Shown piece by piece: positions 15-33,145 of a stretch of 33,145 bases of DNA. Source of the stretch: Baffinella frigidus (lineage: Eukaryota; Cryptophyceae; Cryptomonadales; Baffinellaceae). The stretch lies in assembly GCA_026770585.1 (NCBI GenBank), contig MU646636.1:114578-147722 (forward strand), read 5' to 3'. Position 1 is the stretch's first letter. Each line of letters opens with the position of its first letter. Under the pieces are notes generated by a model. That model did not search any database, was not told the DNA's origin, and saw only the letters and a program-made list of their open reading frames with translations. The translations under genes and the position numbers were made by a program.

Positions 15-3000
15 GTGATAGTGGCGAACGACATTGACATCGCCGTTCCCGGCAGCCTCGCGACGATCGCGCGCGCGATTTCCGAGCGGACCGTTGCCCT
101 GCGCATGCGCCTCCCGGGTACTTCACCCCAAACCCCTCAGGCCATCTCCAGCATCCTGGACAGACACCCCTGCACCCTGAGCACGCCACGCCACGCACGC
201 GGGACGCGTTCGACCCTTGCTGCGAGCACGATGTCGGAGCGGGTTGTTGCGCCTCCCAGGCACCCCAGACCTCAGACCCTGAACCCTGAATCTTGGCCCA
301 TAAACGCCAAAACGTCAACCCACAAGCCCCTAGTCCCCACACACTCAGGCCTGACTCTTATCGCAGACCGCCTCCCGCCCTTTCGGAACCACGTCGAGGT
401 CCGGGCGCATTGCCCAATCAATCTTGAACCCGGGACGTTGTACCCTGAGCCCGAACCCCAGACCCCAGACCCCTGAACCCTGAACCCTAATCACTTGAAC
501 CTCGCGCCTCACCAGCTGAATCCTCAACTCAAACCTAAAAAAATCCCTGAACCCTGCCCCGAACCCCCAACCTATGATCTCTCACCCCTCACCACCGAAC
601 CCCCAATCCCCAGACCTCAAACCCTTGCCACCCCTAACCCCTATCCCCAAACCCTAGGTGGGCTCCTCCCGGCAGGACGAAATCAAATCGAGGTCGGGGT
701 GAACTGTCCGCACCTCCACCTCGCGCGCCTCACCACCCACTTCATCCAGGTTCCACGCCCCCTCTTGGACACCTTCTGGGCTTAGGGTGTGTGGCTTCGG
801 GTTTAGGGTTCAGAGTGTAGGGGTTATGGCCTCGGGCGCCTCACCATTCAGGACTTTATTCAAGTTTCGGGTTCAGGGTTTTGGGTGTGGGGTGCAGGGG
901 TGCAGGGCTTGGAGTTCAGTTTGTGGAGATTAGGGTGTAGGGTTTAAAATGTGGAGTTTAGGATGCAGGGTTTAGGGAGTAGGGGGGTAAGGTTCAGGGC
1001 TTAAGGCCTAGAGTATAGTGTTTAGGGCTTATAGGGCGCCTGACGCGGCAAGTGCCCACGCGCACGTGTGAGTCCAACGTTCCGAGTTGAAATTACCTTT
1101 CAAAGTCCATTTTCATCAATTAACTTCCGAGGTTGATTTTGAGAAATCAAGTTTGTGAGGGGGAGCAGGTGCGAGGAAACTCTACCCCCCCCGTCTACCC
1201 CCCCCGTAAGGAGGAGGAAATGTCGGAAGATCAAGGATCGGACCGAGAAGGGACGAGATTGGTAGAACCCTACAGCCTAAACCCTGAGCCCGAACCCTCA
1301 ACCATGAACCCGAAACCCGAAACACGAAACCCGAAACACGAAACCCGAAACCTGAGACCCTACATGAGCTCTTGGAAGATGAAAGATCGAACCGCGAAGG
1401 GACGAGAGCGGAGGCAAGAGCCGAAGCCCAAAACTCAAGACCCTTAAAACCTTAGCCCGGTCCTGAACCCAAATCCCTGAACCCTACGCCTGGAACCTTT
1501 ACTCGAAACCTGAACCCTAAACCCTAAACCTCAACCCTTATCCTGAACCCGAAACCCAACCCCCCAAAACCCAAGACCCGAAACCCGGAACCCTACAAAC
1601 CAGGTGAGGGCGGCGGGTGAAAAGATGGACGACCAGGGGGGGGGGCAGAGGGGGGCAGAGGGTGGTGGGAGAGGCTGGGAGCGCGCCACGGGGGAATGCT
1701 TCGGAGGGGTAACCCCTAAACTCTAAACTCTGAACCCTAAACCTAAACCTTGGACCCTACACCCTACACTCTAAACACTAGCCTCCTAAACCCCAGTCCT
1801 TAAACCCTAAACCCTAAACCCTAAACCCTTACCCCTAAACCCTAAACCCCAAACCCTAAATCCGAAACCCTAAACCCTAAACCCTACACCCTGAATCCTA
1901 CACCCCAACCCCTACACCCTAAACCCTACACCCGAAAGCAGATCCGCGTGGGTTTCCCAGGAGAGGATCCGGAGGCTGGCTTTGTGCCTGTGGGCACTGC
2001 GCTCAAGGTTTGGAGTTTGGGGCGTAGGGTGAACGTGGTAGGGGTAGAGTTCATGATTTGGGGTTATCGGGTTGTGGTTAGTTTTAGGGTGTTGGGTTTG
2101 GGTTTCCCGGGAGCGGATCAGGAGGCTGACTTTGTGCCTGTGGGCTCTGCACTCAAGGTTTTTGGGTTTATGGGTTGTTGGGTGTGAGGTGTAGGATGCA
2201 GGGTTTGGGGTTGATGCAGGGAGTGGGGTTTGGGGTGTGGCAGTTGAGGTGTAGTTGTTCGGGTATAGAGGTATAGAGCTATGGTTTCCCGGGAGAGGAT
2301 ATGGAAGCTGGTCTTGTGCCTGTGGGCACGGCGCGCAAAGGTTTGGGGTTAGAGTTTGTTGTTTAGGGTTTAGGATTGCGGCTTGGGGTTTGGAGTTTGA
2401 GCTGTTGGGTTCAGGATGTAGGGTTGCTTGGCGGCACTGCGCTTACTGGCGCCAAACAATGCACCCTCAACCTGAACCCCAAACCCCAAACCCTCAACCC
2501 CACGCCCCAAACCCCAAACCCCTAACCCCAAACCCTCACCCCTTATCCCTGAACCCTCAACCTTGAACCCTCAACCCTGAATGCTGCACCAGGTGGAGGT
2601 TCTCCTCTCTGGCCCGCTCGGCGAAGAGGTGCCCCAGGAGGGGATTGGCCCGCCTGTGGAGGAGTGCGCCGCGTGGCGCGTCCTCGTGAGACTCGAGGTT
2701 CGACCCCCATCACAATCTCTTCACACCTTCAATTCGTACAAGTTTGTTCAGATATATCTGGGGTGTGGCGAAGAAAATTACCAGACAATTGACCCCCTTC
2801 CAGGAAATTGTTGTATATTGGGGGATTGTCAATGAAACTTCTTCCTCTTTGCTTCTTCATTACTACACATATGTTTGACTACTATTAGTAGGGTCGACCC
2901 CTCTCCATGCAAGACTGTTGGGGAGGGCATTCCATTTGTTCTGTGGCCCTTCAAGTAATAACCCTGCGATCCTCGATCGAGCAGCATCTGTCGATACCTC

Positions 3001-3975
3001 AACCCTCACCCCGAAACCAGGACCTCTCCATACCCTCCGCGTTTCCTGAGCACGCGGCCGGCATGAAAGCCCTGGCTGAAGCGCCAGTATGCGGGGAGGG
3101 GAGGGCTGTGGGGGACGAAGGGGAGTGGAGGGTGGGAGTTGAGTTCGCAGCCGAGGAGGTCGTGCCTTCCACTTTCCAACCGCGGTTTCCGTTGACCTAC
3201 GTGTCTGCCTCTCCCTCTCGCATCCTGTATTTCGCGCCATCGCAGGTTCTCTTGAGCCTTCACCCTAAGCCTCAACCCCCAACGCAGGTGTCTTTCAACC
3301 AAGGGATCGAGGCGTCTCCCCCGCTCCCTCTTGTCTCGCCTTCTCCTTCCTCCCGCAGGTTTCCTTCAGTCTATACTCTAAACCTCCAAACCCCACACCG
3401 CAACGCAGGTGCCCTTCTCCCACTTGAGCGAGGCAAGCGCCAAGTGGGTGCAGCCTCCTCTCACCAAGCACCATCAGATTACTGTCCAGGTGCGCCACCC
3501 TACCCCATGTCCGTACCCAATAGTTGGTTCCAACTATCCAGCCCCGTCTCTGATGCCTGACTCCTAATCCATAGACCCTAAACCCTAAACCCTAAAACAT
3601 ACAACAAACCATAAACCATAAACAATAAACCATAAACCATAAACCATAAACCATAAACCATACACCTTAAACCATAAACCATAAACCATGAACCACACGC
3701 CTCAAACCCTGAACCTCAGCCCTCAACCCTAAACCCCAAACCCTCAACCCTAAATCCTAAACCCTGAACCTTAAACCCCAAACCCTTAGCCCTAAACCCA
3801 TCCCCTGAACCCTCTAAACAAAAACTAAAAACTAAACCTCAACCAGGCAAACCCTAACGCCTAATCTCTTCAGCAGGTGATATCCCCGTCAGGACGGGTG
3901 GTGGACTCTCACACAGTCAGGGTGGCCCTACTCCGCCTCACTCTCCCTCTCCATGCCAAGTCGCTCATAAACCAG
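15..3975 (+). CDS. Unrecognised N-terminal exons of the methyltransferase-family gene
   Basis: Eight exons (15-117, 676-749, 1169-1261, 1942-2007, 2593-2697, 3021-3131, 3409-3489, 3877-3975). Each opens after an AG and closes at a GT, and their phases chain (phase 1 after the first, phase 0 afterwards). Short readable stretches include VIVANDIDIAVPGSL, RNQIEVGVNCPHLHLARL, IRVGFPGEDPEAGFVPVG, VEVLLSGPLGEEVP and VISPSGRVVDSHTVRVALL. Alternating hydrophobic residues with Pro/Gly turns suggest beta-rich, possibly repeated domains, but I recognise no family. Exon 1169-1261 is the least certain: a strong GTAAGG donor at 1206 offers a shorter end, and its Ser/Pro/Glu-rich composition is odd. The region could instead belong to an upstream gene if a terminator was missed, but no stop codon or intergenic break is visible before 4212. 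Confidence 0.55.
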
Positions 3976-6776
3976 GTTGGCCCTCGCCCCCTGTTGCTCT
4001 CTCTCCCTCCCTCCCTCCCTCCCTCCCCCCCCCCCTCTCTATTTTTTCCGCTCGCTCTCTTTCTGCGCTGCTCCGCCTCTCTCTTCCTCCCCAAGCCTGC
4101 CAAATCTCTCACAAACCCAAATCCCTAACCTCCAATCCCTAATCCCCAATCCCTAATCTCCAAGCCACTAATCCCCAACACCGAAGCACCAAACCCTACC
4201 CACCGCCGCAGGACGGATCGGGTGGGTGTCGCGCAGACATTCCCTCTTTCATGCAGGCGCGAGGGCTGGCGGGGGGGCAGGTTGCACCCCCAACCCTCAT
4301 CCCTAAGTCTTAATCCCTAATCCCTACTCCCGTATCCCTAATCCCTAATCCCCGGACCCTCAACTCTCAAGCCTGAACCCTGGGACAGGCAGTGGAGGTC
4401 GGGGTCTCGACGGGGGCGTTTTCGAAGACGCTTCTCTCGGCGGGGGTGCTTGGCCATCTGTACGCTGTTGATGCGTGGGGGTGGGGGGGGGTGGAGGGAG
4501 GAGGAGGAGGGGATGATAAGGGCCGGGATGTCAAGGAGTATTGGGAGGTGTGATCTTTTCTCTCTCTCACGTGCGGTGTCTCTCGTTTTCTCTCTCCCTC
4601 TTCCTATCCCTTGGTCTCGTTCCCTCTCTCTCCCTCTCTCTCCCTCTCTCTCCCTCTCTCTCCTTCTCTCTCCCTCTATTGAGAGCATGTGAGCCTACCG
4701 CCCTGTGCCCTGTGCCCTGTGATGTGTGAGTTCACACTGCACGAGCCTGCCTACTATTCAAAGCGTCGACGCCGGCTGGGCGGGATGAGTACTGGGGAGT
4801 GTGCTGTTCTCTCTGTCACCCTCACGGTCACGCTCCCTCTTTCGCACACTCTCTCACGCTCCCCTCCCTCTCTTGCTCTCGTATGCTCCCTCTCTCACTC
4901 ACTCACTCACTCACTCACTTACTCACTCACCCACCCTCCCTATCTCACTCTGATACTGCACAAACCCACCATTGAAATCGTCTGAGCCGACCATAACATG
5001 TTGTTCTATTTGAACAGGTTTTGAGGCTGCTGGAGCCCTTGTCGTGCAACGTCACCGTGGTCCGCCTCACCTCACGCGAGGTACATAAACCTGTGTTCCA
5101 CCCGAGATCACAAGTTGACAACTCACAAAAGTCGACTTTCGCCATTCTGTCTTTAGGCAAGAGGTGTATGATGCTGGGATTCAAGTATGTGTTGTTTAAC
5201 ACCGAGTGGGTCTCAAGGCTCCTTGCGCTCACGCTGATCCCCCCAAAAATCTCGTACAGTCATCCTACACACTATCAATCAGCACACCCCAAACACAATC
5301 ACGTTTGTTGTATCACTTGCCTGCCCTCCCCCGCATCGCGCATTACTTAATTGAATCAATTAACCCATCCTACACATCATCACCTAATCCGCGATTCCGG
5401 GGGGGCAGGCGCTGCAGGGTTTCGCAGACGCCTCGCTCGACTTCGTCTACCTCGATGGTCCCCCTCCCGTCCACCCTCCCCCCGCGCCAGTGGTTTGTCG
5501 AATATTTCGCACTAGGGTTGAACGAGGCAGCATTTTGAACCAGGCGACATTTAACAAATTGAATCTTTTGAAATGGTGCCACCTGGCACGTGCACGGGCC
5601 CGCCTCGCGATCTTGTGGCGGACCCGCCTCGGGTGCATTGAGCGCTGGAATTGAATCCGGCAGGTTATGTGCACATGGGGCTGGAGGGGCACTTCGGAGG
5701 CTTCTTGCGGGACTGGGCGCGAAAGCTCCGCCCAGGAGGTACGTTCATCCAGCTCTTGGAAATAGTGCAAATTGGGTAAAGTTGACGATTCAGGTCCAAC
5801 AACTTTAGTACCAGCATCGTCAACTTCGCAGAGCACCGAAACTAGCCAGCCTAGACCCTGAACCCTCAGACTGTGAACCGTGAACCCCCAACACCCAAAA
5901 CCGGAACGCAGGGATTCTCGCGGGGCGTTGCTACTCGTTATTCTTCCAGAACTAACCAATCGACCTTCAACCCTAAACCCTAGCCATCCCAGACCCTGAA
6001 ACATCCGTGGACCGTAAACCCCCTAACACCAAACACCAAACACCAAACACCAAACACCAAACGCCAAAGCCCATCCCAGGGATGCTCGCGGGGCATCGCT
6101 ACTCGCCTTCGCGCTACCCCCTACTCTTCCACAACCCTCAGCCATAAACCACAACCCCTACACCCTGAACCATGAACCCTACACCCCAAACGCAAACCCC
6201 ACGATCTGCCCGAGGAAGACTTGAGGGTTTGGTGACACACCGTGACCGCCCCCGATGTTGGGCTCACAGGCGCGTGCCCCTACACCAGGGATCCTCGCGG
6301 GGCATCGCTACTCGCGCTCGCGCTACCCGCTCCTGTTCCACAACGTCAACGTCTTCGCCAACACCCTCCACGTCCCGCTGTATTCAACAGATGCGTGCGA
6401 CGACCCGCAGGCTGCCCTCCCTAGACCTTAAACCCTTCACTCTAGACCATAAAACCCAAACCCTCAACCCTCAACCCTAACCCCTAACCCCTAACCCCTA
6501 ACCCCTAACCCCTAACCCCTAACCCCTAACCCCTAACCCATAACCCCTAACCCATAACCCCTAACCCTTAACCCCTAAACGCTGAACACTAAACCCTAAA
6601 CAATAAACCAGGCCTACACGTCATGGCTGCTTGAAGTCCCGCTTGGAATCCCACACGAGGTTGAGGGTTTAGGATTCAAGGTTCAGGGATTCGGGGTTAG
6701 GGTTTAGGGTGTGTCACAGATCGGGGAGGGCGGCCCTCCCCGGACCACAACCCAGACACTCAACGACCTGTATTGA
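15..6776 (+). CDS. Class I SAM-dependent methyltransferase family protein, multi-exon, 5' partial
   Basis: Proposed exons: 15-117, 676-749, 1169-1261, 1942-2007, 2593-2697, 3021-3131, 3409-3489, 3877-3975, 4212-4280, 4389-4480, 5018-5080, 5409-5457, 5664-5738, 6289-6410, 6612-6659 and 6720-6776 (stop TGA at 6774-6776). Splice phases agree between neighbours except between 4480 (phase 2) and 5018 (phase 0), where a small exon must be missing from my model. The last seven exons carry the methyltransferase motifs; the first nine are unrecognised. All introns use an AG acceptor, and donors are GT except the GC donor I propose at 6411. Introns are filled with CCCTAAA-like repeats and partial exon copies. 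The gene starts left of the window. It converges with the TRAF-like gene; 471 bp separate the two stop codons. The family call is firm at motif level. Substrate and cellular location are unknown. Confidence 0.8.
228..286 (+). pseudogene. Degraded donor-side copy of exon 15-117
   Basis: The string CGATGTCGGAGCGGGTTGTT followed by GCGCCTCCCAGGCAC matches the end of the exon (CGATTTCCGAGCGGACCGTT, then GCGCCTCCCGGGTAC) with a 9-bp deletion. The donor GT has become GC. It lies downstream of the intact exon. Confidence 0.7.
382..415 (+). pseudogene. Degraded acceptor-side copy of exon 676-749
   Basis: GGAACCACGTCGAGGTCCGG aligns with the exon's GAAATCAAATCGAGGTCGGG and continues a little further. 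Translation RNHVEVRAHCP parallels RNQIEVGVNCP. It lies upstream of the intact exon and preserves a CGCAG at 361-365. Confidence 0.65.
785..1035 (+). repeat. G-strand telomere-like array, donor-proximal in intron 750-1168
   Basis: Variants of TTTAGGG, TTCAGGG and TGTAGGG begin 35 bp after the donor and stop before the acceptor half. Confidence 0.85.
826..858 (+). pseudogene. Degraded donor-side copy of exon 676-749
   Basis: GCGCCTCACCATTCAGGACT plus TTATTCAAGTTTC matches the exon end GCGCCTCACCACCCACTTCA plus TCCAG|GTTCC. It lies downstream of the exon, just after it within G-rich repeat. Confidence 0.65.
1262..1941 (+). repeat. C-strand array with CCCGAAA and CCCTAAA variants
   Basis: Runs such as CCCGAAACACGAAACC and CCCTAAACCCTAAACC fill the intron before exon 1942-2007. 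A G-rich tract interrupts at about 1637-1690. Confidence 0.85.
1372..1416 (+). pseudogene. Donor-side copy of exon 1169-1261
   Basis: GGAAGATGAAAGATCGAACC plus GCGAAGGGACGAGAG repeats GGAAGATCAAGGATCGGACC plus GAGAAGGGACGAGAT at 1224-1258. It lies downstream and loses the GT donor. Confidence 0.65.
2095..2160 (+). pseudogene. Donor-side copy 1 of exon 1942-2007
   Basis: Starts at GGTTTCCCGGGAGCGGATCA inside the exon and runs through GTGCCTGTGGGCTCTGCACT to a GT. It lacks the exon's first bases and the acceptor. Confidence 0.85.
2279..2342 (+). pseudogene. Donor-side copy 2 of exon 1942-2007
   Basis: Second downstream copy (GGTTTCCCGGGAGAGGATAT, then GTGCCTGTGGGCACGGCGCG). A third, very short relic (GCGGCACTGCGCTTACTGG) occurs near 2431-2450. 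Confidence 0.85.
3236..3371 (+). pseudogene. Serial acceptor-side copies of exon 3409-3489
   Basis: Three CGCAG|GT starts precede the intact exon: near 3243 (GCAGGTTCTCTTGAGCC), near 3284 (CGCAGGTGTCTTTCAACCAA, followed by GGGATCGAGGCG) and near 3354 (CGCAGGTTTCCTTCAGTC). Each parallels the exon start GCAGGTGCCCTTCTCCCACT, followed by TGAGCGAGGCA. The middle one is the clearest; the other two are short. Confidence 0.6.
3575..3860 (+). repeat. CCATAAA / CCCTAAA array
   Basis: About fifteen units, with a homogenised block of ACCATAA units at about 3605-3695 that lacks the telomeric CCC. Confidence 0.9.
4066..4118 (+). pseudogene. Donor-side copy of exon 3877-3975
   Basis: CTCCGCCTCTCTCTTCCTCC plus AGCCTGCCAAATCTCTCACA parallels the exon's CTCCGCCTCACTCTCCCTCT plus ATGCCAAGTCGCTCATAAAC. 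It lies downstream; the donor is gone. Confidence 0.75.
4212..6776 (+). CDS. Methyltransferase domain exons (SAM-binding fold, Methyltransf_24-like)
   Basis: Exons 4212-4280, 4389-4480, 5018-5080, 5409-5457, 5664-5738, 6289-6410, 6612-6659 and 6720-6776. Motif I is AVEVGVSTGAFSKTLL (acidic residue followed by a glycine loop that binds SAM). It is followed by LYAVDAWG, whose Asp is the usual ribose-binding acidic position. Exon 5409-5457 plus the next gives ADASLDFVYLDG (motif IV region). Exon 5664-5738 gives FLRDWARKLRPGG and runs in phase into ILAGHRYS, the family's typical turn where many members have GHDY. These are hallmarks of soluble class I methyltransferases of the Methyltransf_24 kind. 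The C-terminus reads TTTQTLNDLY then stop. The residue after GH is Arg rather than the frequent Asp, so activity is not assured. Confidence 0.82.
4556..4680 (+). repeat. CT-rich microsatellite in intron
   Basis: CTCTCTCC units, then (CTCC)n-like runs. A TCAC tandem follows at about 4893-4925. Neither appears coding. Confidence 0.9.
5907..5949 (+). pseudogene. Acceptor-side copy 1 of exon 6289-6410
   Basis: GCAGGGATTCTCGCGGGGCG plus TTGCTACTCG matches the exon start CCAGGGATCCTCGCGGGGCA plus TCGCTACTCG. It is upstream of the exon, retains the AG acceptor, and decays after about 40 bp. Confidence 0.85.
6075..6137 (+). pseudogene. Acceptor-side copy 2 of exon 6289-6410
   Basis: CAGGGATGCTCGCGGGGCAT and onwards through CGCGCTACCCCCTACTCTTC repeats about 56 bp of the exon with about six differences, three of them synonymous. 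The copy stops at CACAAC and passes straight into CCTCAGCC-type repeat. Confidence 0.9.
6425..6611 (+). repeat. CCCCTAA array in intron
   Basis: About nine nearly perfect CCCCTAA units at 6475-6560 flanked by CCCTAAA and CCCTCAA variants. Ends at the AAACCAG acceptor of exon 6612-6659. Confidence 0.95.
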
Positions 6777-7247: not shown

Positions 7248-7770
7248 CTACTCGGGGAGGTACAGGTGCACCACCATACGGAGCTTGATGCTCCCGTCCT
7301 CCCGCACCGCCCCCGCCTTGTCTTCTTCTGTCAGATCGAACCAAGCGCCTTCCACTCGGCCTATGCCAGCAGTTTCGACGGGAAGCAGCTGGAAGTCACA
7401 AGACTCCGGGCGACTGACGACGCGGAGAACCTTGTCGTTCTTGTCCAGGATAGAACACTTGTAGTGCATCGTGCACGCATGCCCTTCTCGGAGGAGGAAA
7501 GACATGGAAAACACCTCGTCCCCCACGCCCACCTGGTTTCCTACCGTGAAATTGCAACACTGGCCACACACCCCGTCCGTGAACGTGTACGAAGCACTCC
7601 GTTTGACGACAAACGAGCTGTCGGTGCTCCAGGTGAACACGCGCGTCAGTGCGTCAGAACGCTTTTGCAGCCCGAAGTTTGCCAGTTTCTGTTTCGAGAT
7701 CTCAGCGGCCTGGTTTAGGGTTGAGGTTTCAGGGTTTGGGGTTTAGGGTTTAGGGTTCAGGGATTAGGGT

Positions 7771-7802
<32 letters not shown>

Positions 7803-10086: not shown

Positions 10087-10152
10087 CTGCAGCGTCCCCT
10101 CCTCCCAACCCAAGCCCCTAACACCCTACCCCTTCACCCTTAACCGCGCCAT

Positions 10153-11418: not shown

Positions 11419-11419
11419 A

Positions 11420-15000: not shown

Positions 15001-16109
15001 TACGGTTAAGGTTGAGGTTAAGGTTTAGGGTTAGGGAAGGGCTGGGTAGCACCTCATCGCCCCTGCCGTTGGGTTTCTCGTGGCTTCGGGGTTTCACCTT
15101 CAACTGCCCGGAGGGTTAGAAGTTAGGAGTTAGGCTTGGTGTGCGGTTGGGGGTGAGGAGTTAGGAGTGAGGCTTGGTTTAGGACTTGGGAGTAAGGAGT
15201 TAGGCACAGGGCGGCGAAGCAGCCTTGTGATCCACTCTCCCACCAGGGGTACTCCCGAACCCCTGATCCACGACCCCCCCCAAAACATTACCACAATTTT
15301 TTAAACGTAAACCGTGATGGTCATGCGTCCATACACCGGGCTACGAAGAAAAAAATATGGCCGTTGACCAACGTTCCGTTACTGTATCTATTCATTAAAG
15401 CTCCAATAGCTCCAATAGCTCCGTGGGAACACACCTATGTCCCTACACGATTGCCTACCGTAGGGTCCTTTGCATCAGCTGCCATCTGTGTGTCACGACA
15501 ACAATCGAACAATGAAAAACGTTGAATCTAGTGCCTGCATGGTCATTTTTTTGCTATTGTTTCATTCTTTCCGCGTAGCCAACATGAGTGAAACCCGCTG
15601 TATACACACGTGCCAAGAGAATGGGGTTTCAAATCGGTTAGCTACAGAAAAAAAAGGATTGAAACCAGCACCAAACGTTGGCGATGCTGGCAGCCATCAA
15701 CTTTTGCCATTTTGTTGCTGTTTTTTGCAGCCCCAAGCACTTACCAGCATTTCATAGATAGGATAGGATACGCTTGCTGACCCGGTGAACGCGCGCGGTG
15801 AGTGGTTTTAAACCCTAAACTCTGAACCCTGAGCCCTGCACCTGAACCCTGGACCCTAAAACATAGACACTAAACCCTATCTCCTTGATTGTACAGGAGT
15901 CTGTCCGAACTCCTCACCCCACACCAAGTCTAACTAAGCTTTGGTGCGACTGCCCACCTCAAGCCGATGCCACGGCACAAACCCTAAACCCTAATCCCCT
16001 GAGCCCCCAAGTGTTGACATACCTCCATCTCTTTGGTAGCAAAGTTGACGCTTGCTGACCCAGCGAAGGAGCGCTGTGACAGGTTCTTCTCCAAGTAGTA
16101 CCTGAACGC
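12096..16109 (-). CDS. SMC6: SMC6 C-terminal ATPase lobe and stop
   Basis: Exon 16109-16023 reads AFRYYLEKNLSQRSFAGSAS, the SMC6 F...LsqR.f.G segment. Exon 15103-15053 (LKVKPRSHEKPNGRGDE) precedes 14647-14594 (VTVDRLSGGERSFITLCM), which is the ABC signature motif. Exon 14063-14007 ends SPFLGMDEFD, the Walker B with its catalytic Glu, and continues in 13165-13115 as VFMDDANRTVALDMLVK (D-loop). Exon 12780-12728 gives QCVIITPNSI (the H-loop region, without His as is usual in SMC6). Exon 12207-12096 ends PIERGQQTLNIVPVVEASS.. then TAG. All catalytic motifs of this lobe look intact. An exon around 16940-16990 (FFKICKTDRQW in one frame) is likely but its phase does not fit both neighbours. Confidence 0.95.
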
Positions 16110-19094
16110 CTGACACCAGAAGGGCCGCAGGATCCAGGGTTCAGTAGGGGGGTTCAGGGGAAGGGTTCAGTGTCCAGCAGCCCAAGAACGCGCGATGTGT
16201 TCTTCTCAAAATAATACCGGAAACCCTGCGGATAGTTTGACATCGTTACGCGTTTGGTGCCATTGTTAAGCGTTGAATGACATCGTGCAGCATTGATTGA
16301 CATCGTCAAGCGTTTGTCGCCAGAGACCAAGTACAATCTCGCCAGATCAAAGTCCATCTAGCCACCCAGAGAAAATGTTCCTCACCATTCGTACGACGGT
16401 TCCTCCAGAAAAACCTACCGATTATAGTTGTATAGGACTTACTGTACCGAACAAAAAACGCGAAACGTTTTGCATGTAGACCTCTAGGGTTATTGCTGAT
16501 GATGGTTATAGCCATCATATAACCATCATCAGGCTCCAGGGACATCCGTGTGACGGTCTCTTCAGGGCTTTCGACTTGCCTCTGTCGCTTGCCCCGTCCT
16601 ACTTCTAAACCCTCAACCCTAAACCCTAAACCCTCAAACCCCTACAACCCTATAATCCCGACATTTGCAAGTGATTCACACGTTCTGCCCACGAGAAGAT
16701 CCCATGCGGATTTGTTTAATTCAAACTACCTTTTGTCTATCGTAGGGGCAGGTTTTGTGCTATGGTTTAACTATGGCGAGGCCAAGATAGTAAATGCAAC
16801 CCTTGGGGTTAGAAGGAATAAACCATCAACCCTACTCAGGGTCTAGGGAACCCTGCGTAGGGTTTTGGATACCGATTGGCGGACCGTCTTCCTAGCCTTG
16901 CAGAAATTGCGTTAACGTAAACCCCGAGTTTGGTGTCTAGAGTTTGGGGTTGAGGGTACCCATTGGCGATCCGTCTTGCAAATCTTGAAGAAAACTCTGC
17001 GCCGCTTGAATTCTGCGCGGAATTTCTGTTTCCAGAGTTTTGGGTTGAGGGGTTGGGGTTGAAGGTTTGGGGTTTAAGTTTTAGGGACTACGGTCTAGGG
17101 TTTAGGGTTTGTGTTCAACGACTGTCCAGGTGAGCTCGCGGACGATCCCAGTTTAGGGTTTAGGGTTTGGGGTTCAGGGTTGCTCGTCAAGGTTGCAGGT
17201 TTCAGGGTTGTAGGGTTCAGGGTTTAGGGTTTAGAGTTGAGGGTTTAGGGTTTAGAGTTTAGAGTTGAGGGTTTAGGGTTTAGGGTTTGGGTTGAAGGGA
17301 TTGGTGTTTTGGGGGTTTGGGTTTGGGGTTTGGGGTTTGGGGTTTAGGGTTCAGGGTTCAGGGATTGGAGTTTGGAGTTTATGGTTTAGGGTTCAGGGTT
17401 TAGGGTGTAGGGTTTAGGGTTTAGGGTTTAGGGTGTAGGGTGTAGGATTTAGGGATGAGGGTTTAGGTTTTAGGTTTTAGGGTTTAGGGTTTAGGGTTTA
17501 GGGTTTCGGGTTTAGGGTTTAAGGTTTGTGGTTTGGGCCTTATAGCTTGGCGCTAGAGTTTAGAGTTTACTGTGTTGGGTTTACGGTTTAGGGTTTCGGG
17601 ATTGGGTATGAAGGTTCATGGTTTAGGGTCTGGGGTTTAGTATGTAGTGTTTGGGGGTTGGGTTTGAAGTTTAGGGGTTAGGGTTTGGGGTTTATGATGA
17701 GGGTGTACGGTTCAGTGGGGGTTGGGTTTCAAGTTTGGGGGTTTGAGGTTTAGGGTTCAGGGTTCGGATTTTAGGGTCAAGGGTTTATGGTTGAGGGTCT
17801 ACGGTTCAGGTTTCAGGGTCCAAGGTTTAGAGTTTAGGGTTTAGGTTTTAGGGTTGGTGGCTCGGATATTAGGGCCTGTAGTCTAGGGTTTGGGGTTTAG
17901 TGTTTGGGGTTCACCGTTTAGGGTTTGGGGTTTGGGCATTAGGGTTCATTGTTCAGGGTCTGGGCTTTAGTGTTTAGTGTTTGGGGGTTGGGTTTCAATT
18001 TTCGGGTTCAGGGTTTGGGGTTTATGGTTTAGGGTCGGGGGTTCAGTGTTTAGTGTTTAGGGGTTGGTTTTCAAGTTTAGGGGTAAGGGTGGGGGGTTCA
18101 GGGTCGTCACCGTGCTGTAAAAAGAGAGCGTCCTGGCCTGATTTTTCCTGGATTCCTTTTGCGTCTCCTGGTGAAGGGTTTAGGGCGTAGGGTTTAGGGT
18201 TTAGTGTTCAGGGTTTAGGGTGTGTGGTTTATGGTTTAGGGTTTGGGGTTTGGGGTTTAGGGTTTAGGGTTTAGGGTTGCACGAAAACCTGAAGCAGACA
18301 GGTTGGGTTCTGTGAAACGGAATATTTACAGTGGGTGCTTGAAAATTAGGACAATCACCGCCCTAGGGTCCTGCAGTAGTGCCACTCCCAGGAGCATAGG
18401 ACCACCCTGGGGGCGTTGTTATTCTTGAATGTCAAGTACTCCTGTAGCGATCACAAATGCGGATGGTGTTGTTACGGACCCGTCATTGTTTGTCATTTTT
18501 TTGTTGATTTCGCGAAGAGTAGTGAGACTGACGATAGCAGTGGTTTTGAGCATGCGGTGTGGGACACTGGCAACTTGACCAGAAAGGGTAATTCCAAGTT
18601 GGGTGAAGCAAGTGTGATTCGAGGGGCAGAGCCGTCTTATAGCTCAATCTCAGCCTCGTTTGGTATCACTTGTCTGGTAAGACCGGGATGTTTTGCACTC
18701 CCGAGTTGACGGATGTATACGACACACCCAGGCTGTCAACTCAAAGATAGTCAGTGGACCAGACTGAGGGGGGGCTAGGTCATACGTACACGTTGAGCAG
18801 CCACTCGGTGGACTACGAATCTTTCACTTCACCCAGAATCTGAGTGCAACGTGACCAAACGTGTGCTAGAAAAGGCTTTTTGTTAACTTTGAGGAAAGTT
18901 GACTGTTACAAAGAGACTTGTACTGTGTGGGGGGGGGTTCAATAGTAGGGTCAACTTAAGGAGGTCTTACGAATCTGGCGAAGTTGACGGCGAGCGACAC
19001 ATGCTTCTGACTCCTCTTCTTCATTTTTGTGATCGTGTCCCTGGTTCAGGGTTTAGGATTCAGGGTTCAGAGTTTAGGGTTTATGGTTTATGGT

Positions 19095-19161
<67 letters not shown>

Positions 19162-20056
19162 GGTTGAGGGTTGAAGGTTGAAGGTTTGAGAGTGTTGACG
19201 TGGTAGGTTCGTCACTGTTTAGGGGGTTAGGGCTGCAGGATTTTTTACGCGACGATCGCGTTTTCACGCGATCGTGAGTTACATTACTTAGCCTACGCCC
19301 TACAGTCACATTGGTTACAGTCCCATTGCGTACCCTACCCGCTACGCCTCGACGGCCTTTCCAGCCTCTTCAGGGGTCCTGTCAGTATCGATGCGCAATG
19401 CAGAGAGAGGGCGAGAAGTTGGGCGAGAGGGCTCGAGGGAGGGAGGGAGGGAGGGGGAGAGAGAGAGCAAGTGGGAAAGTTTCTGATGCCAGCATCAGCG
19501 AGAGAGAGAGAGAAGGAGAAACCTACACTCCAGGGGGGGGATCTCTCCTCCCCCCCCCCTCCCTTCCGCCCTCCCTCTCTCCCCCACCCTCCCCTCTCTC
19601 TCTCAGGGGGGGGGGGGGCATACGTCTTAGCCTGGAGGGCGCAGTCGGCCTGAGCAGGAGACTTGGCAGTGTCGACGCGCGCCCCGAGCTCCTCGGCCGC
19701 CTTGCTCACCTCCTGCACACAGGTCATCATCCTCCATCATCAGCACAATCTGTACGCGTGTTGCCATTTCCTGGTCTTGTCAGAGGGTTTGAACCAGGAA
19801 GGCTCGAGACAACTGGCGTTTTGTTGAGGCACACAACCGCCTTTTGCGAACAAGTGAAGCACATACGAACAGGTTGTTGCCGGGGCTCACACGAAAGTAC
19901 CTCAGGTGGTTCTCGCTGAACAGGTTATGAAACCCAAATTGGTACGGGGCTTTGGGCATTTTCTGACTGTATCAGAGAGTTTGCACCAGAAAGGCCGAGG
20001 TCTGAAGCCGCAAGGTCCCTGATCTGGCAGCTCAGAATTCTGCTCCAGGTCAGACC

Positions 20057-20088
<32 letters not shown>

Positions 20089-20119
20089 ATCCTCAACCCT
20101 CAACCCTCGACCACCAACC

Positions 20120-20193
<74 letters not shown>

Positions 20194-23100: not shown

Positions 23101-26100
23101 CCTCGGCGATCAGTGCACTACATAATTACGAACTATGTGGGAACATCACGCAAGACCAAAACACCGCATGGTGTATGTGTGATGTCACGATCACATTCCC
23201 GTACCGCTATGCCAAACAACTGGATTACTCGGTGCAAGAGGGCACATACGTGACACGCCAATGGGAAGACGGATTTCAAGGACTTAGCTGCGTTTATCCC
23301 CCATAGGGATTTGGAGCCTTTTCTGCAGAAGGTAGGCGAATGGCTCCAATTTCCCACGGGCGGAGAGTAAGCAAATTGAATACTGATCCGGATGGCAGGT
23401 TTCGGTTAGATTCGGATGGCAGGTTTGGGTTACTTGATGTTATGGCCGACGCCATTGGGCAGAATGATCTTCTGGACTTGGCTGGCCATGTATTCCGTCC
23501 CCTGGTCCAGCGAGCGCGCCAGCCGGATCTGCGAGAGTAGTTTAGGGTTTAGGGTTTAGGGTTTGGGGTTGAGGGATGAGGGTTTAGGGTTTAGGGGTTT
23601 GGGTTGAGGGTTGAGGGTTGAAGGTTGAGGATTGAGGTTTGAGGTTTGAGGGTTGAGGGTGTCTACGATGCTCCCACTAGCGCCGCGCTGAATTCTAAAC
23701 TCTAAAGCCTCAACCCTAATTCCTACACCCTACACCTTAAACCCTCAAGCCTAATCCCTGTACCCTCAACCCTTAACACTAAACCCTAAACCCGAAACAC
23801 AAGAGTCGAGAGGAACGCGGGAACCCTAGACCCTTAGCACCAAATACTAATCCCTAGACGATGGATTCAGGGTTTAGGAATCCGGAGTTAGGGTGCCCTT
23901 ATCGTTGGATCGGAAGGCGCCTTTTCACGCGAGAATGCTAGAGGATCCTATTTGCATGTGGGGTTGTAAATATGTTTACCAGGATGGTGTGTTCCAATCT
24001 CGCGTCTCTGCTAATTTCGCAGAGTTACTTTACAAATCAACCAAAGTTACTACTACACAAATGTCCACCTTTAAAAGCACATCGGTTTTAAATAGGCCCC
24101 TGTAGCATTCTCACGTGGTCCCCCCCCCGAGAAAGTTGACTTTCAGGCTTCGGGTGTGACTTTGACGATACGTAAAACTCAATACACCGAAGAACAAAGT
24201 GAATATGTTGACAATAATAAAGGCAGCGGACCTCGTTGGAGCGGAAGGAATCAACGAGAAACGCGTGCACGATGCTCTGCGCGCCCTGCTTTCAGGTTTC
24301 GGGTTCAGGGTTTAGGGTTTAGGGTTGAGAGTTTAGGGTTTAGGGTTTAAGGTTTTAGAGTTTAGGAGCTAGGCTTGAGGATTGAGAGTTCAAGCTTTAG
24401 AGTCTAGTGTTCAGGGTTCATGGTTAAGGGTGTAAGGTTGAGGGTGTGGGGTTTAGTGATTAGAGTATAGGGTTTAGGCAGACCGGGTTGTCGTGCTTGA
24501 TTTGGATCACGTCCAGCAGGCTCGGCATTCCTGGTGTTGCGTTTTCCACAGTCACTTAAGTCACCGGAGGTTCCACTTTGGCTTTGAGACGTTCCACTCT
24601 CGACTTTTGACTCGGATAAAAGTCAGGGGCAACGCTCTTCAAACCCGAACCCGGAAACACCCCTGCGTGTAAGTTGGCTGGCGGCACAAAGGGCAGATAA
24701 AATGCATTTATCCGAGTGCCAGTAAACATCTCTCTCTCCGAAACGCCACACCAGGGATTCCGGTTTAGGTAAACCCCGTCGCCGGAATCCGGACCAGTGG
24801 AACAAATCAAAGGCCTCGGCCAAGAGGATTTTCTCCCTCGTTGAGAGGCCGGTGGCACCCACTCGAGAATGCTGGAGCACCCTATGTACATGCGGGGTTG
24901 CAAGGAGTTGTACCAGGATACGTACCAACCTCTTGTCTGACAAAAATTCCACCAGGAATGTGACCAAACTCACAAAAGTCATTACACAAATGCCCACGTG
25001 TAAAAACATCTCGGTTTTAAATTGGGTGCTCCAGCATTCTCGTGTGGTGCGGTGCACTGGACGGCGCATGCAAAGAATGAAAGAACAATTAATCCCACGA
25101 AACTAAATAGACCGTTGTGTGAAGCCCGGTGTGAGGGCCTGGAGAGGGTAGCCCTCCCGGAACAGACGCCCCGGATTTCCGTACGCAACGTGACCAATCC
25201 CCATACAAATCCTCTTAACATTTTTGCGCAGCCACTTGCAGAGTATTTAAACAGGGCTACGGTGAGCCTCGAGTAGCACCTGAGTCGCACTGGATGCGCG
25301 ATTCCGTGCAGACGCGATGCGCGTCCTTGGACCAGATCTTGATAGAGATGTTGCCTCTCCCGCTGCCCACCCGCGCCCCTGGGACGCTTCGCACCATCTC
25401 TTCCGCCTTGCGCTGCATCTGTTGTGGGTTTAGGCGCTTTATCTCAGAGAATGTATTACTTGAAGCCTTTCCTGCCAACCAAATTTATTACACCAATGGA
25501 TCATACTTGTAATAGTGACGCATTTTGAAGTAACTTTCGTTGGTCTCTCCCGGAGCCCACCCGCGCCCCGACTCCTCGCACCTTCTCTTCTGCTTTGTGT
25601 TGCATCTGTTTGAGGGTTGGGGGGTTGGGGTTACGGGTTTGGGGTTAGGATTGAGGGGGGTGTACCGCAAACCCAGCATTTCAACTTGAGAACAGTCTTG
25701 TCAACCCGAGAGAGGCAGAGCTAGGGGTTCTCAAGCTCGGCCAGCAGACTCTGTCAGCTTTTTGCTTCTGGCCGAGTCTGCTCCAACAACATGTGCCGAT
25801 ATCGAATCTACCTTACCGAAAACTGCCAACCCTAAAACCGACACCCTACACCCCAACCCCTAGACTTCGCCGGTGAAAAGTCCTTGCGTTCTTGACATGC
25901 ACGCATCACTATTCGGGTTTAGGGTTCAGGGTTTAGGAATTAGGGTTTAGGGTTTAGGGTTTAGGGTTCGGGGTAGAGGGTTTATTTCGCCGGCATGTAG
26001 ATTCCGAGCCTACTTCCGGGAGCCTCGATCCCCGACCAGTTGAGGGGGGTTAGGGTGTAGGATGCAGGGTGTAGGGTGTAGGGTGTAGGGTGTAGGGTGT

Positions 26101-29100
26101 AGGGTGTAGGGTGTAGAGTTTAGGGTTTATTCAGGTTAGGGTGTACCTCGCTGTTGGGGACGAGGAAGGTGGTGGCGAGAGACGCCAGGCTGCTGCACAC
26201 GCCGTTGCTCCACATCTGCCAAACGACAGGTTGCCACAAGTTGACAGTTTGTCACAAGTAGACAGTTTGGGCACAGTAACATTTTGACATGGAGAGAACA
26301 GCAGCTGCACGCGCCATTACTCACACACATTTACCGTAGAGAACAACTTCCACAGAGTCACAACTTAACAAAGTTCAAGACATGTTAAAGCTTTGCAGAA
26401 CGGGCTAGGCAACGTCCTCACACCAAGACACGAGCAATGTGTGTCCCCCAACACCGAAAGAAACGTTCACCATCCCCGACTGCGAGGTTCAGGGGTGAGG
26501 GTTGAGGGGTGCGGGCAAATTCTCGGTCGTCTTTGATGCTCATGTAGCGCCCTGCTTAGAGTTTAAACCCCACAACCTGAACCCTACACCATAAACCCTA
26601 AACTCTCAGGTTTAATCTGAACTCGAACCCCTAAGGTTTGGTCTAAACCCTAAACCCTCAGGCGGTGACCTCCTGGCCGTGCTTGATGCAGGTTTAATCT
26701 GAACTCGAACCCCTAAGGTTTGGTCTAAACCCTAAACCCTCAGGCGGTGACCTCCTGGCCGTGCTTGATGGAGATGTAGCGCGCAAGGGGGCCTAGAGGC
26801 GGGGACCCGCCAAATGCCTGCTTTCGGGCTTCGGGTTTCAGGTTTCAGGTGTCAGGTTTCATGTTTCGGGTTTCGGGTTTCGGGTTCCAAGTTTCGGGTT
26901 CCGGGTTTCGGGATTCGGGATTCGGGGTTCGGTCTTCGGGGTTTGGGTGACGACGACACGATTTAACTTGAATCGGAACACAACTACATTCTGAGTCGAA
27001 TCAAATCAATTCGGAACGCTCTGTACGTCGCCTGGAGGGCACTTGAGCCATATCTGAGCTCAACTCACCTGTTGTAAGGGTTTCAACCCCCTGGGTTTGT
27101 ACAGAATTTCTTTGAATGGACGTGTCGCGAAATATTATCTATTTGGGTCCGGGACAAGAGTTGAGGGGCCTGGGTCTGCCGGCGTTTTATTCTGGCTCGT
27201 CCTCAAAAGTATTCAAGAGAAGAAAACCAGTACAAAACGGGTGAATAACAAGCCTTTAGGTCCTTTAGGTTTTCAATGCTCCCAACATATGCCAACGACA
27301 CGCCCTTCAGGACGAGGCAGAATACAACTTAGGCAGAGCTAGAGGAAATTCGACCTGGCGGTTCTGTTCAAACTTCTGCACGACTTTCGGCACATCCTGG
27401 TTTCGGGTTTCGGGTCTTGGATTCACGTGACGATTTTCGGATTTCAGATTTCGGGGTTTTGATTTTGGGTTTCGGGTTTCGGATTGGCGTTTCGGGTTTA
27501 CATTTCGGGGTTTGAATTAGGGTTTCGGGTTTCGGGTTTGAGTTTAGGGTCAAGGGTCAAGGGTTTCGGTTTCGAGCTTCGGGTTTAGAGTGAAGAGATT
27601 GGGGTTTAGGGTGTAGGGTTTGGGGTTTAAAGTTTAGGGGTTTTGGGTTTCGGGTTTAGGGTTTGGGGGTTGGGTTTTGGGGGTTCGGTTTTCGGTTTAG
27701 GGTTTTTGGGTTTTTCAGATTTGGAACTCGGGTTTGAGGATTGGTTTCGTGTTTCGTGTTTCGGGTTTTGGGTTTGGGGGTTGGGGTTTCGTGTTTCGGG
27801 TTTACCCGCCCCAGCATAGCGAGGGGATTGTTCTGCTGCTTGTCCATTGCCTGGTTGAGCGTTGAGTTTTAGATTTTCAAGGTTTCAGGGTTTTAGGAGT
27901 TGAAGGTTTTAGGGGTGTAGGATTTTGGGGTTTCAGGGTACTGGGTTCAGGGATTAGGGCGTTAGGTTGTGGGGTTGTAGAGTTTGGGTTGAGGGTTTCA
28001 GGGTTCAGGGTTTGTGTATAGAGTGCAGGGGTTCAGTGTTGTAGAGGTCAAGGTTCAGGGTTGAGCGTTGAGGGTTTCAAGTTTCATGGTTCAGGGTTCA
28101 GGAAATCTCGGTGTTCAGGGTGAAGGATTTGGGGTGTAGGGTTTAGGGTGCATGGTTTAGGTTGTGAGGGGTGGGTTCACCTGGAACGAGGCCTTGGCCT
28201 CCTGCGTGCGCTGGTTCGCCGACTTTACCTGCGGGTTTCAGGGTTTCGGGTTTCGGGTTTCGGGTTGCGGGTTTAGGGTTTAGGGTTTAGGGTTTAGGGT
28301 TTAGGGTTTAAGGTTCAAGGTTTAGGGCTGAGGGTTTAGGGTTCTTGGTTTAGGTATGGGGTTTGAGTTCAGGGAGTGGGGCCTGGGTTGAGTTCAGGGA
28401 GTGGGGCCTGGGGTTCGGGGGTTCATGGTTCTGGGTCTGGGGATTGTTTTATCTCAGCTTGGCATAATTTTACCATAGCATAAAACGCCCCCAAGATAAC
28501 AGAAGGGTAATTTGGATCAAATCAGCCCTGATGGCAGGACGATTTTCGGGCTCCGACTGTGACCAAGTCGGTCGGGTGTTGGGTGTCGGGTCCACTCAGT
28601 GGGCGCTGCATCCTTCAAGGCCCCCGGATCTAGCGGCCACGTGATCAAATTTGTTTCAGAAAAGGCTGTAAAGTCATTTTTTGCGGGGCAAGTTAACTTT
28701 TAAAAAAGAGGGCTGTAGTTCACCGAGTGAATCGCGGACGGCCTACACACAAATCGAGAACGGCTTGGGTAGGGACTGCAGCACGCACCTCGGAATCCGC
28801 CGATTCGAAGATTCCCTTGGCCACGTCCAGCTTCGCTTGCTCCTCCTTGGAGACCTACGGTTTAGGGTGTAGGGTTTAGGGTTCAGGGTTTTGGGTTTTG
28901 GGTTTTGGGTTTAGGGTTTAGGGTTTAGGTTTGGGGGTTTACCTCCTCCTGAACCCTTTGCGCGGTCTGTAACTCCTGAAGCTTTGCCTGGTTTATGGTT
29001 TAGGGTTTACGTTTTAGGGTTGTGGGTTGAAGTAGTCCCTGTTGGCCACGCGACATGAAACAAGGCAAAAGATGACGATGCTGGTACTAAACTGTCAACT

Positions 29101-32100
29101 TGTGGCATTGTTCGATTGCAACTTTTGGCATATTTTTATTGGACGCCGACGACTGCCCTCCCGGATTTCTTTGTCAGCAAAAAGAGAGCCACCTTTATAC
29201 GGGCGCGTTCTGGGTTAGTATGGGCGCGTCGTGATGGAACACAAAAGCTAGTACTGCCCCGTCCTGAAGGGACACTCAGATCTGAAGAGCTCCCGAATGT
29301 CTTTGGCCGCTCCTGCACCGGCTGCCACGCTCCTCCTAGCTCTGTCTCAGTCTATTTGGGCCGACCAATGCGGTTCCCCCGGGCTCTTTCCCGGTCCAAA
29401 GTCGACGGATGTGTACCGTGAAGGCAGCGTGTCCACTTGGACATAGTCTGACAGAACCTCGAGGCCCGGACGTCGAATTCCTTCTCTAAATGTACTCTAA
29501 AGTCTAAACGCATTTTCACTCTAAATGTAGTTTTCCTATTATTACACTAAATATTGTTACTCTAAAAGTGGTTTTAGAGCCTCGACGCCCGGGACCATCA
29601 ACGCTCAATCATGTACCCCAACCCTTTACCAATTACCCTTTACCCTTTACCCTTTACCCTTTACCCTCTACCTGGTACCCTTTACCCTCTACCTTTTTTC
29701 CTGTACCCTTTACCCTTTGCCCTTTACCCTGTACCCTTTACCCTTTACCCTTTACCCTTTACCCTTTACCCTTTACCCTTTCCCCTTCACCCTTTACCCT
29801 CTACCCTTGACCCTTCACCCTTGACCCCTGACACCCTAACCCTGAAGCCTGAGCACCTCAAGGCCAGGGACATCGACGAAATCAGCAAGAGCGTGCCCAC
29901 CTTTCCTCGCCCGCTCCTGCGCCGCCTTCCTGTTTTCGGCTTTCGGGTTTGGGCTACGGGAATTGTGGTTTGGGGTTTGGGGGTTGGGGCTTGGAGTTGA
30001 CCACGCCCGCTCCTGTGCCGCCTCCCTAGTGTAGGATTTAGGGTTTGGTGTAGTCCTCCCTGCGAACAAAGCCGCGTCTTACAAGTACACTCTGAGCCAG
30101 AACATTTCACCCGAGTCAACTCCTCCTGAAAACCAGAGCCTCAAGTCAAATGCCTGCACCCAGAGCCAGTCCATCCAAATAAAATGTCAACTTACTGCTC
30201 AGGATCAGCTTTGTTGACTTAAGGTCAACTAACCTGGCTGTAAAATAAGAAGGGTTCGTACCGGGGATGACTTGGTCTTCTCCCTGGTTATGGTTTCCTA
30301 TTTATTGGAGAACAAATCAGAGGGTGGCAACTGATTTCGTCTTCGCAACAGGATAGAAAACCTGTCCGAACTCTTGATCCCGAAGCAGCAGCCTCTGCGT
30401 GTGGGCAATTGCCCGCCTCAAGACGATGTCACGGTACAAACCCTAAACCCTAAAACCCTGCACCACCAACTGTTTGATCGCAGGGTCAAGTTTAGGGTGT
30501 AGGGTGTAGGGTTCAGCCTGCCTCTGCGTGTGTGCGATGCCTCCTCGTCTGCAACCCTAAACCCTGAACGCTCTCGCCGGAACCCTAGTCCTCGAGAGCG
30601 TGGAACACAAGTCCCTAACCCTTGAACACGCTTGCCTCAGCTTGTCGCTCATTTCTTGGCGGAGGAGCACAATGTCTTGCTCTAGCTTGTTGCCTTCTCC
30701 CTCCACCTGTGTCAGCCTTTGGGGTTAAATTTCTAAAGGCCTTTGGGGCGTAGGGTTTAAGTTTGGGGTTGGTTTCTCCAACGGCGCTACCGCGGGTCGC
30801 CTTGTTAGCACGGTATTCACCAATTGAGGCATTGAATCGTGCAAGATTCACGCGTTGGTGAGGTGTGCAAGACCTAGCTCTGCCTCCCTCGGGTAGACCG
30901 ACTGTTCTCAAGTTGACGTTTTGGGTGTGCGGTACAAATCCGTTAACTTTGGAGCGGGACAGAGCCCCCGGGCACCAAACTGGTGAGCACAAATAACCTG
31001 AGACAGAGCTAGGAGGCCTGATTTAGCCTGTGCCCCCCTCTTCTATCTGGAAGGGAGCTAGCCCGTCCAACCACACCACACACGCGGTACAAGGTAGCTT
31101 CGTTGACACAAGGTTCAGTAGGTAGACTCTGAGGGTAATGGAGAAGAAGAGACTCGACCTTCTTGAGATCGCCGTCGGCCTGGCCTGCCGCTTGGTTCCG
31201 CTGGGTGCACACTTCCTTCGCGGCGTTTACCTGCAACTCAGGGTTTAGAGTTATGGGGCTAGAGTTTAGGGTTTAGGGTGTGGGGTTTAGGGTTTACGGT
31301 TCAGGGTTTACGGTGTAGGGTATAGGGTTGAGGGTTGAGGGATTAGGGTTTGCACACTTCCTTTACGGCATTCACCTGCCGAAAGGAAAACTTGGGGTTC
31401 AGGGTTCAGGGTTTAGGGCTTCGAGTTTGTGATTTACTGTTTAAGGTATTACCTCAGCAGTCGGGGGGTGCATCTGCGCTTTCATGACTTGCTCTGAATC
31501 AGAAACACCCCGAGGGGGCTAGGTGCGAAACACTTGAAAGTCCCGGCTGGTTGAGGATGCAGGGCATAGAGTTTGGGGTGTTACATCAGCGGCGTGGGCC
31601 TGGGCCTGGGCCTTGATCTCTTGCATTCGCTGCGCCGCCCCGGCCAGCTTCTCCTGCACACGCATACCTTTCTCAATACCAATGGAGAAGGGGCCTTGAG
31701 CGCCCACCGGGAAAAATGAAAAAATGGTAACAGTTGACGATTCTGGTGGGAAAACGTCGACTTTTACCCTTTTATTACTATTATTTGAAAAGTTTCTCCG
31801 CAAACCGCTCTAGCCAAACAGATACGGCGAACACGAGCTCTGCCTCACTCGAGTTGGCTCACTATTCTCAACTTGAAATGCAGGGTATGTGGTACAAACC
31901 CGTAAACTTTGGAGCGGGAAAGAGCCCGGCCGCACCAACATGTTGAGCCCAGATCGACTGAGGCAGCGCTGAAGGAGTGGGATGGGTGCCGTCCTAAGGC
32001 TCATTAGACTTGGATCACTCAACTTAAGGCCCGAGAGTAATAAACAGTAATACAAGTAATGAGAGCAATCAGAGGAAAAGTAATACGAGCGATAATTTGT

Positions 32101-32881: not shown

Positions 32882-32885
32882 CTGA

Positions 32886-33145
32886 GTTGGGTTTAGGTTT
32901 GGGGTTCAGGGTTCAGGGTTTATGGTTTAGGGTTTAGGGTGTAGGGTTTAGGGTTTAGCCTTTAGGGTTCAGGGTCTAGGGTGTAGGGTTTAGGGTTTAG
33001 AGTTGAGGGTTGAGGGTTGAGGGTCGAGGCGGCAGAGTCGCCACTCACGACCGTGTAAGGTCGCAGCAACGAGTTTAGGGTGTAGGGTGTAGGGTGTAGG
33101 GTGCAGGGTGCAGGGTGCAGGGTGCAGGGTGCAGGGTGCAGGGTG
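32886..33145 (-). repeat. Heptamer array at the right edge
   Basis: TTTAGGG, then TGTAGGG, then at least six TGCAGGG units running off the window. A non-repeat island at 33026-33072 has a GTGAGTGG-like motif on the minus strand, but I could not make it an exon. Confidence 0.9.

Follow-up and report, generated by a model that had tools for sequence, protein, structure and literature searches.

Exons of Baffinella frigidus (Cryptophyceae) are accompanied, within their own flanking introns, by partial copies of themselves that follow a rule of polarity, whereby a copy lying upstream repeats the start of the exon and a copy lying downstream repeats its end. The rule was found in a stretch of 33,145 nucleotides (nt) of contig MU646636.1 (positions 114,578 to 147,722 of assembly GCA_026770585.1), here called the window, which carries an SMC6 gene on its minus strand and another intron-rich gene, referred to as the first gene, on its plus strand. 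Across the window and a set of other loci, 73 of the 77 copies that score above threshold obey it, confirming that the polarity rule is real and that it extends beyond the window. Direct support was obtained for the polarity of the copies, for their neutrality when pooled, for their single splice site and direct orientation, and for duplicates of the full unit at some exons.

Eighty-two exons were aligned to both of their flanks, 44 from the window (36 of SMC6 and eight of the first gene, called by open frame and splice sites, many of them approximately) and 38 from seven loci on six other contigs. Each exon was compared on the sense strand with up to 1500 nt on either side and, as a null, with the flanks of other loci. 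The score threshold of 29 is the 99.5th percentile of 5777 null scores. An alignment of every exon in the genome to its flanking introns had been proposed in the first-pass annotation of this DNA; made here on a sample of 82 exons, the comparison does link the side of a copy to the half of the exon that it repeats, relative to swapped flanks. Similarity by chance is ruled out by the swapped flanks together with an antisense control, in which 3 of 163 flanks reach 29; on the sense strand the figure is 51 of 163. The assembly is a draft with gaps, its introns are of low complexity and a few matches lie in simple-sequence tracts, all of which could favour an assembly artefact or chance resemblance. 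Such an explanation can nevertheless hardly hold, as the threshold is reached by only 0.9% of the 9656 comparisons that make up the final null, the highest of which scores 36, against scores of 50-142 for many real copies; divergence of 0-32% with a bias to silent sites is unlike misassembly, and the copies recur in the seven loci on six other contigs.

Outside the window, 57 of 59 copies obey the rule and 28 of 38 exons carry copies. The corresponding binomial probability is 6e-15 if copies are taken as independent, which serial copies are not; counted by exon side, 34 of 36 obey (2e-8). In the two stretches that were fetched after the rule had been stated, all 21 copies obey it, on 11 of 15 exons, and in a gene encoding CFAP251 it is obeyed by 29 of 29. 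The exon calls in the latter gene are supported by homology, as 18 exons, when joined, match a solved CFAP251 chain over about 460 residues (E 1e-79); exons of locus L036 match F5_F8_type_C (2e-22) and those of L003 match Laminin_G_3 (1e-7). Two exceptions were found outside the window, namely a third match in the upstream flank of one exon of L004, which stands beside a regular copy and is probably an internal repeat, and a weak downstream match in L029 (score 30). Over the window and the outside loci together, eleven exons have matches on both sides, three of them with a match that breaks the rule (29930-29857 and 676-749 of the window, and exon t2 of L029).

The outside loci came from a DNA search, from arbitrary positions on other contigs, where 16 of 20 stretches proved to be entirely N, and from the two stretches fetched later; their exons were picked out by eye while the copies were visible. 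Among the eight loci of the DNA search, L001 is the window itself, exons were called in L003, L004 and L008, and none were called in L002, L005, L006 and L007, which are covered by a repeat survey only. Doubtful or cut exons, such as those near 6778 of L033 and at the start of L036, were left uncalled. Because of this choice of loci, of calls made with copies in view, and of uncalled exons and loci, the share of 28 in 38 exons is inflated; the choice of loci and exons has no bearing on which side a copy falls. In L005 and L006, 3-kb loci with telomere-like repeats, the repeat survey detected no local non-telomeric repeats.

Within the window, a score of 29 or more is reached by 18 copies, which belong to 12 of the 44 exons; 16 of the 18 obey the rule, a count that includes a second and a third match of exon 3890-3972 (3973-4011 and 4622-4648) that lie in CT-rich tracts and may be spurious. 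The first-pass annotation had reported at least eighteen exons with copies, a figure that was not reproduced at this threshold, and had held every copy to be polarised, which is too strong in view of the exceptions, although the rule itself lies far above chance. The exons and copies of the window are as follows.

16023..16109, minus strand: SMC6 exon with copies on both sides, bounded by AG and GT and with an open frame
16178..16222, minus strand: copy upstream of exon 16109-16023 that repeats its start (residues 4-49 of 87) at 72% identity, with GCAG before it (score 37)
15748..15807, minus strand: copy downstream of exon 16109-16023 that repeats its end (residues 25-84 of 87) at 73% identity, with GTAAGT after it (score 56)
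19346..19396, minus strand: downstream copy of exon 19723-19623, residues 44-94 of 101, unanchored under a 6-nt rule (score 34, 67% identity)
23255..23300, minus strand: downstream copy of exon 23531-23439, residues 36-83 of 93, not anchored at the edge (score 37.5, 71% identity)
25302..25418, minus strand: SMC6 exon
25539..25605, minus strand: copy upstream of exon 25418-25302 that repeats its start (residues 1-69 of 117) at 80% identity and has AG (score 79)
26267..26327, minus strand: upstream copy of exon 26215-26148, without AG or GT (score 36.5, 69% identity, residues 2-62 of 68)
29857..29930, minus strand: SMC6 coiled-coil exon
30001..30026, minus strand: upstream copy of the start of exon 29930-29857 (score 40, 88% identity)
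29268..29326, minus strand: exception, a downstream copy of residues 1-65 of 74 of exon 29930-29857 (score 38.5, 70% identity)
31351..31375, minus strand: upstream copy of the start of exon 31230-31147, with GCAG (score 34, 84% identity)
222..254, plus strand: downstream copy of the end of exon 15-100 (score 31, 76% identity)
676..749, plus strand: exon of the first gene
830..862, plus strand: downstream copy of the end of exon 676-749, followed by GT (score 32, 76% identity)
481..514, plus strand: exception, a marginal upstream match to residues 25-60 of 74 of exon 676-749 (score 29.5, 72% identity)
3890..3972, plus strand: exon of the first gene, approximate
4065..4116, plus strand: downstream copy of the end of exon 3890-3972 (score 54.5, 77% identity)
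6289..6410, plus strand: exon of the first gene (GILAGHRYSRSRYPLLFHN...)
6080..6163, plus strand: copy upstream of exon 6289-6410 that repeats its start and has CCAG (score 89; 90% identity in an ungapped core of 60 nt)
5912..5937, plus strand: second upstream copy of the start of exon 6289-6410, with GCAG (score 40, 88% identity)

Two exons had been singled out earlier as copied on both sides. For exon 16109-16023 both copies were recovered (upstream score 37, downstream score 56), whereas for exon 676-749 the downstream copy stands (830-862, score 32) and the upstream one is only suggestive, consisting of a match between 371-415 and 665-709 at 69% identity (E 0.044).

Most copies, 66 of 77, are anchored within 6 nt of the exon edge. 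The anchored copies carry a median of 46 nt of exon sequence (19-109) at a median identity of 0.87 (0.68-1.00), and lie at a median spacing of 220 nt (82-1182), mostly 160-380 bp. With a one-base shift allowed, AG is retained in 31 of 32 anchored upstream copies and GT or GC in 31 of 34 anchored downstream copies. Five copies extend to within 8 nt of either end of the exon, and none of these possesses both splice sites. The copies can be serial: four scored copies lie upstream of one CFAP251 exon and four downstream of another, with further short copies seen by eye. At an exon of L003 (at 879) that has a GC donor (CAG|GCGAGT), both downstream copies (at 1094 and 1437) keep GC.

Mismatches between copy and exon occur at rates of 0.079, 0.092 and 0.211 at codon positions 1, 2 and 3 (76/960, 88/960 and 201/954 in 59 framed pairs); of the 36 indels, four have a length divisible by three and 32 do not. 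Because of this pattern of codon-position mismatch and these frame-breaking indels, the pooled copies fit non-coding, neutral sequence, and the rates fit a copy that drifts freely at about 0.08-0.09 per site alongside an exon that changes mostly at silent sites. Ordinary or mutually exclusive alternative exons are disfavoured by the same indels and by the lack of paired splice sites in the five near-full-length copies. A function for the copies, as decoy splice sites, regulatory pseudo-exons or alternative exon ends, might be read into the splice dinucleotides kept in 62 of 66 anchored copies and into the 28 of 38 outside exons that carry copies, yet it is quite improbable, since drift is about equal at codon positions 1 and 2, indels mostly break the frame, none of the near-full-length copies pairs an acceptor with a donor, and identity runs from 1.00 down to 0.68, as in decay. 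Moreover, 62 of 66, a count that allowed a one-base shift, is only little above the roughly 0.83 expected from 9% drift per site.

The mechanism that we favour, and think somewhat probable, is that the copies are the remains of recurrent duplications spanning an exon edge, filtered by splicing. Very frequent local duplications, each with its two breakpoints on either side of an exon edge, in the exon and in the adjoining intron, would leave a whole exon together with a truncated copy, which would hold the start with its acceptor if upstream, or the end with its donor if downstream; no other such arrangement would keep the gene intact. Polarity would then follow from geometry, because one breakpoint lies in the exon and one in the intron and the intact exon is kept. 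A copy with a single splice site would not be recognised as an exon, and so would be spliced out with the intron and decay neutrally, whereas whole-exon copies would enter messenger RNA (mRNA) and be weeded out by selection. The intron half of the duplicated unit, made up of CCCTAAA arrays, minisatellites and small inverted-repeat elements, would be rewritten faster than the unique exon half, and often only the exon half would remain visible because of it. The duplication machinery, the splicing filter and the fast turnover of introns are parts of the mechanism that we infer; exon definition makes the filter a likely reason why half-copies only are found.

Tandem duplication had also been the explanation offered in the first-pass annotation, and it gains from the polarity, from the neutrality of the copies, from direct local repeats and from an exact tandem. 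In nine loci, repeat pairs within 1 kb are direct in 97 cases and inverted in five. Tandem Repeats Finder located an exact 82-bp tandem of two copies (100%) at 26607-26770 on the minus strand, running from inside the exon called at 26813-26753 into the intron, which would be a fresh downstream copy, a duplication caught young. When 200-nt intron flanks of exon and copy were compared with foreign flanks, 19 of 65 pairs proved related at p<0.05, with about three expected, and relatedness was associated with age, being found in 11 of 23 pairs at exon identity of at least 0.90 as against 8 of 42 below it (Fisher p = 0.022). An earlier, smaller set had given 6 of 47 pairs at p<0.03 (150-nt flanks) and had suggested that contiguous duplication could account for hardly any of the pairs, a view tempered by the set of 65, with its 19 related pairs and effect of age. 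Judged from the alignments, contiguous units appear to exist, and their intron half appears to fade with age, as fast-changing arrays would.

Several observations weigh against this account, whether against the polarity on which it is built or against duplication of a contiguous unit. Simple-sequence matches were left unmasked, and at least three of the 73 rule-obeying copies lie in such tracts (two of exon 3890-3972 and one of exon r3 of L003); five of the 77 copies are nearly of exon length, and their label as start or end is decided by a narrow margin. Spacing approximates block length in one of the 97 direct repeat pairs, with telomere-like blocks masked. Where the first-pass explanation falls short is that the intron half is copied detectably in only 19 pairs: in the other 46 of 65, including 12 of 23 at exon identity of at least 0.90, no related intron flank was detected at p<0.05. 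Across 47 pairs, identity at intron positions 21-40 past the splice site is 0.31 and 0.29, against null values of 0.29 and 0.25, and in many pairs similarity ends within a few bases of the splice site. Since related flanks are seen in so few pairs, a tandem model holds only if intron repeats turn over very fast or if something further is at work, such as many duplications that end at the splice junction next to unrelated filler. The speed of turnover would also have to vary a lot, given that pair q1, which is old (78% exon identity), retains about 150 nt of intron similarity and pair t1, at 100%, about 10-20 nt.

It is possible, if doubtful, that these sharp ends arose instead by insertion of filler with target duplication, whereby unrelated filler, either a telomere-like array or a small inverted-repeat element, enters close to or at the splice junction by transposition or break repair, 20-110 nt of exon to one side becomes duplicated around it, and the filler becomes the new intron end. 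Filler that is unrelated to the sequence beyond the copy, as in the 46 pairs, and similarity that often stops near AG or GT would both be expected of such insertion, as would the facing inverted-repeat ends (GATCGAGCACCC...) at exon x1 of CFAP251 in L018 (9535-9558 versus 9677-9700). These ends sit at both ends of the gap between upstream copy and exon, as if a small element fills it. In L036, two upstream copies, judged by eye, enter the same minisatellite at the same exon position; a non-telomeric minisatellite (TACAACACTATTAGTCAGCAC) at about 1540-1840 fills the gaps between these two copies and the exon. In a review (PMC3443670), short direct repeats flanking gained introns of Daphnia are read as the outcome of staggered-break repair. 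Insertion of filler, however, leaves the 19 pairs with related flanks and the exact 82-bp tandem unexplained, the 20-110 nt copied are more than would be usual in a target duplication, and there is no clear reason why the second cut should fall on the exon side at both acceptors and donors. The telomere-like fraction of the gaps between copy and exon ranges from 0 to about 0.9.

Edges at splice junctions would also be produced if the copies were templated by spliced RNA or complementary DNA (cDNA), and similarity does often end near the exon edge. Such an origin is very improbable and, for the copies tested, largely refuted, as none of 55 testable copies runs on into the neighbouring called exon (maximum score 20 against the threshold of 29), with the reservation that missed exons could hide some. 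The GC donor kept in both downstream copies of L003 lies beyond the reach of a spliced template, and therefore genomic DNA was copied there. A further proposal, which we regard as unlikely, is that a process that recognises or is stopped by splice junctions, for instance through chromatin, R-loops or AG|GT-directed insertion, repeatedly copies 20-110 nt of exon up to the splice site and adds new filler. If so, introns would grow outward from exon edges and leave a readable stratigraphy of half-exons.

The window is part of one contig in an assembly of 382 Mb and 1364 contigs, and the sampled contig stretches that adjoin it consist of N. SMC6 occupies the minus strand between about 12.7 kb and the right end of the window, and was identified by a match of its joined exon translations to SMC6 chains in PDB (E 1e-9); a Pfam search of its tail returned no families, and one of its coiled coil returned three, weak and unconvincing (best E 0.0036). 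The first gene, which lies on the plus strand, likewise gave no Pfam family when a fragment of it was searched; from its motifs, it may encode a putative S-adenosylmethionine (SAM)-dependent methyltransferase. Between these two very intron-rich genes lies an intron-poor gene (7248-9094, minus strand), which is putatively RING/TRAF-like and is broken near 7712-7991 by a telomere-like array.

Telomere-like 7-mers are abundant in the introns of the window, and in nine of nine loci they are C-rich (CCCTAAA type) on the sense strand, whichever genomic strand the gene occupies. The C-rich share of intron bases is 0.18-0.50, versus 0.06-0.13 for the G-rich form. CCCTAAA contains neither AG nor GT and TTTAGGG contains both, and splicing may therefore fix the orientation of these repeats. 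Dispersed repeats that are related to one another also recur within introns of the window and of L033, where the end of such a repeat, judged by eye, lies directly before successive downstream copies of one exon. Examples of both kinds are these.

7712-7991, 17151-18062 and 20054-20198: telomere-like intron repeats of the window
10210-10285, 12885-12964, 29330-29418, 30876-31015 and 31836-31977: related dispersed repeats of the window
8848-9240 of L033: related dispersed repeat outside the window

If many exons keep decaying, side-specific half-copies, the rate and direction of intron growth could be read from single genomes, and, were half-copies widespread, how much sequence splicing ignores would become testable. 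The apparent rule that a copy survives only if it has a single splice site amounts to a natural experiment on exon definition. Should the sharp stop at splice sites be real, and not a product of intron turnover, it would implicate a mutational process linked with the boundaries of exons, and such a process would be new as far as we know.

Among known systems, tandem exon duplication, with which the name of Letunic (2002) is reportedly linked, and introners, with which a paper on Amoebophrya (PMC7789003) is said to be linked, invite comparison. No description of the polarity rule was found in the open-licence literature, as far as its text was available, subscription papers lying outside the search. 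Closest in appearance are the degenerate intronic exons of Exonize (PMC12343006), which, in the portion of that report consulted, are partly degenerate exon-like sequences in introns of the same gene; across 20 genomes, partial, inter-boundary and intronic matches are described there in more genes than full-exon duplications. That portion reports no link between side and exon half, whereas the copies described here are near-always polarised half-exons, and their density, with copies at most called exons in some genes, is also unlike what is reported there. Intron gain by tandem duplication of AGGT, as outlined in a review (PMC3443670) and with a reported case in potato (PMC4974935), shares a short tandem duplication at AG/GT and copies of exon ends in the intron. 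Under that model, copies should adjoin the neighbouring exon; here none of 55 testable copies lies within 12 nt of a neighbouring called exon, the smallest gap being 77 nt, and for these copies such intron gain is disfavoured, although missed exons could hide cases. Direct repeats near borders, read as traces of break repair or insertion, are likewise described by Rogers and Bendich in 2025 (PMC11782384), but in the sections seen these are repeats of 4-30 bp near exon/intron borders that pair the two borders of an intron, and here the repeated sequence is an exon edge of 19-109 nt, lying within the intron that flanks that exon. Introners and intron gain by break repair, so far as the review covers them in the parts seen (PMC3443670), resemble the present case in that filler lies between duplicated host sequence and is tolerated because it is spliced out, and differ in that here no one family of repeated elements was recognised at the copies and the duplicated stretches are longer. 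As judged from these partial views of the literature, the ingredients, namely degenerate exon copies, tandem duplication and border repeats, are known, and it is their density and near-perfect polarity that are unusual.

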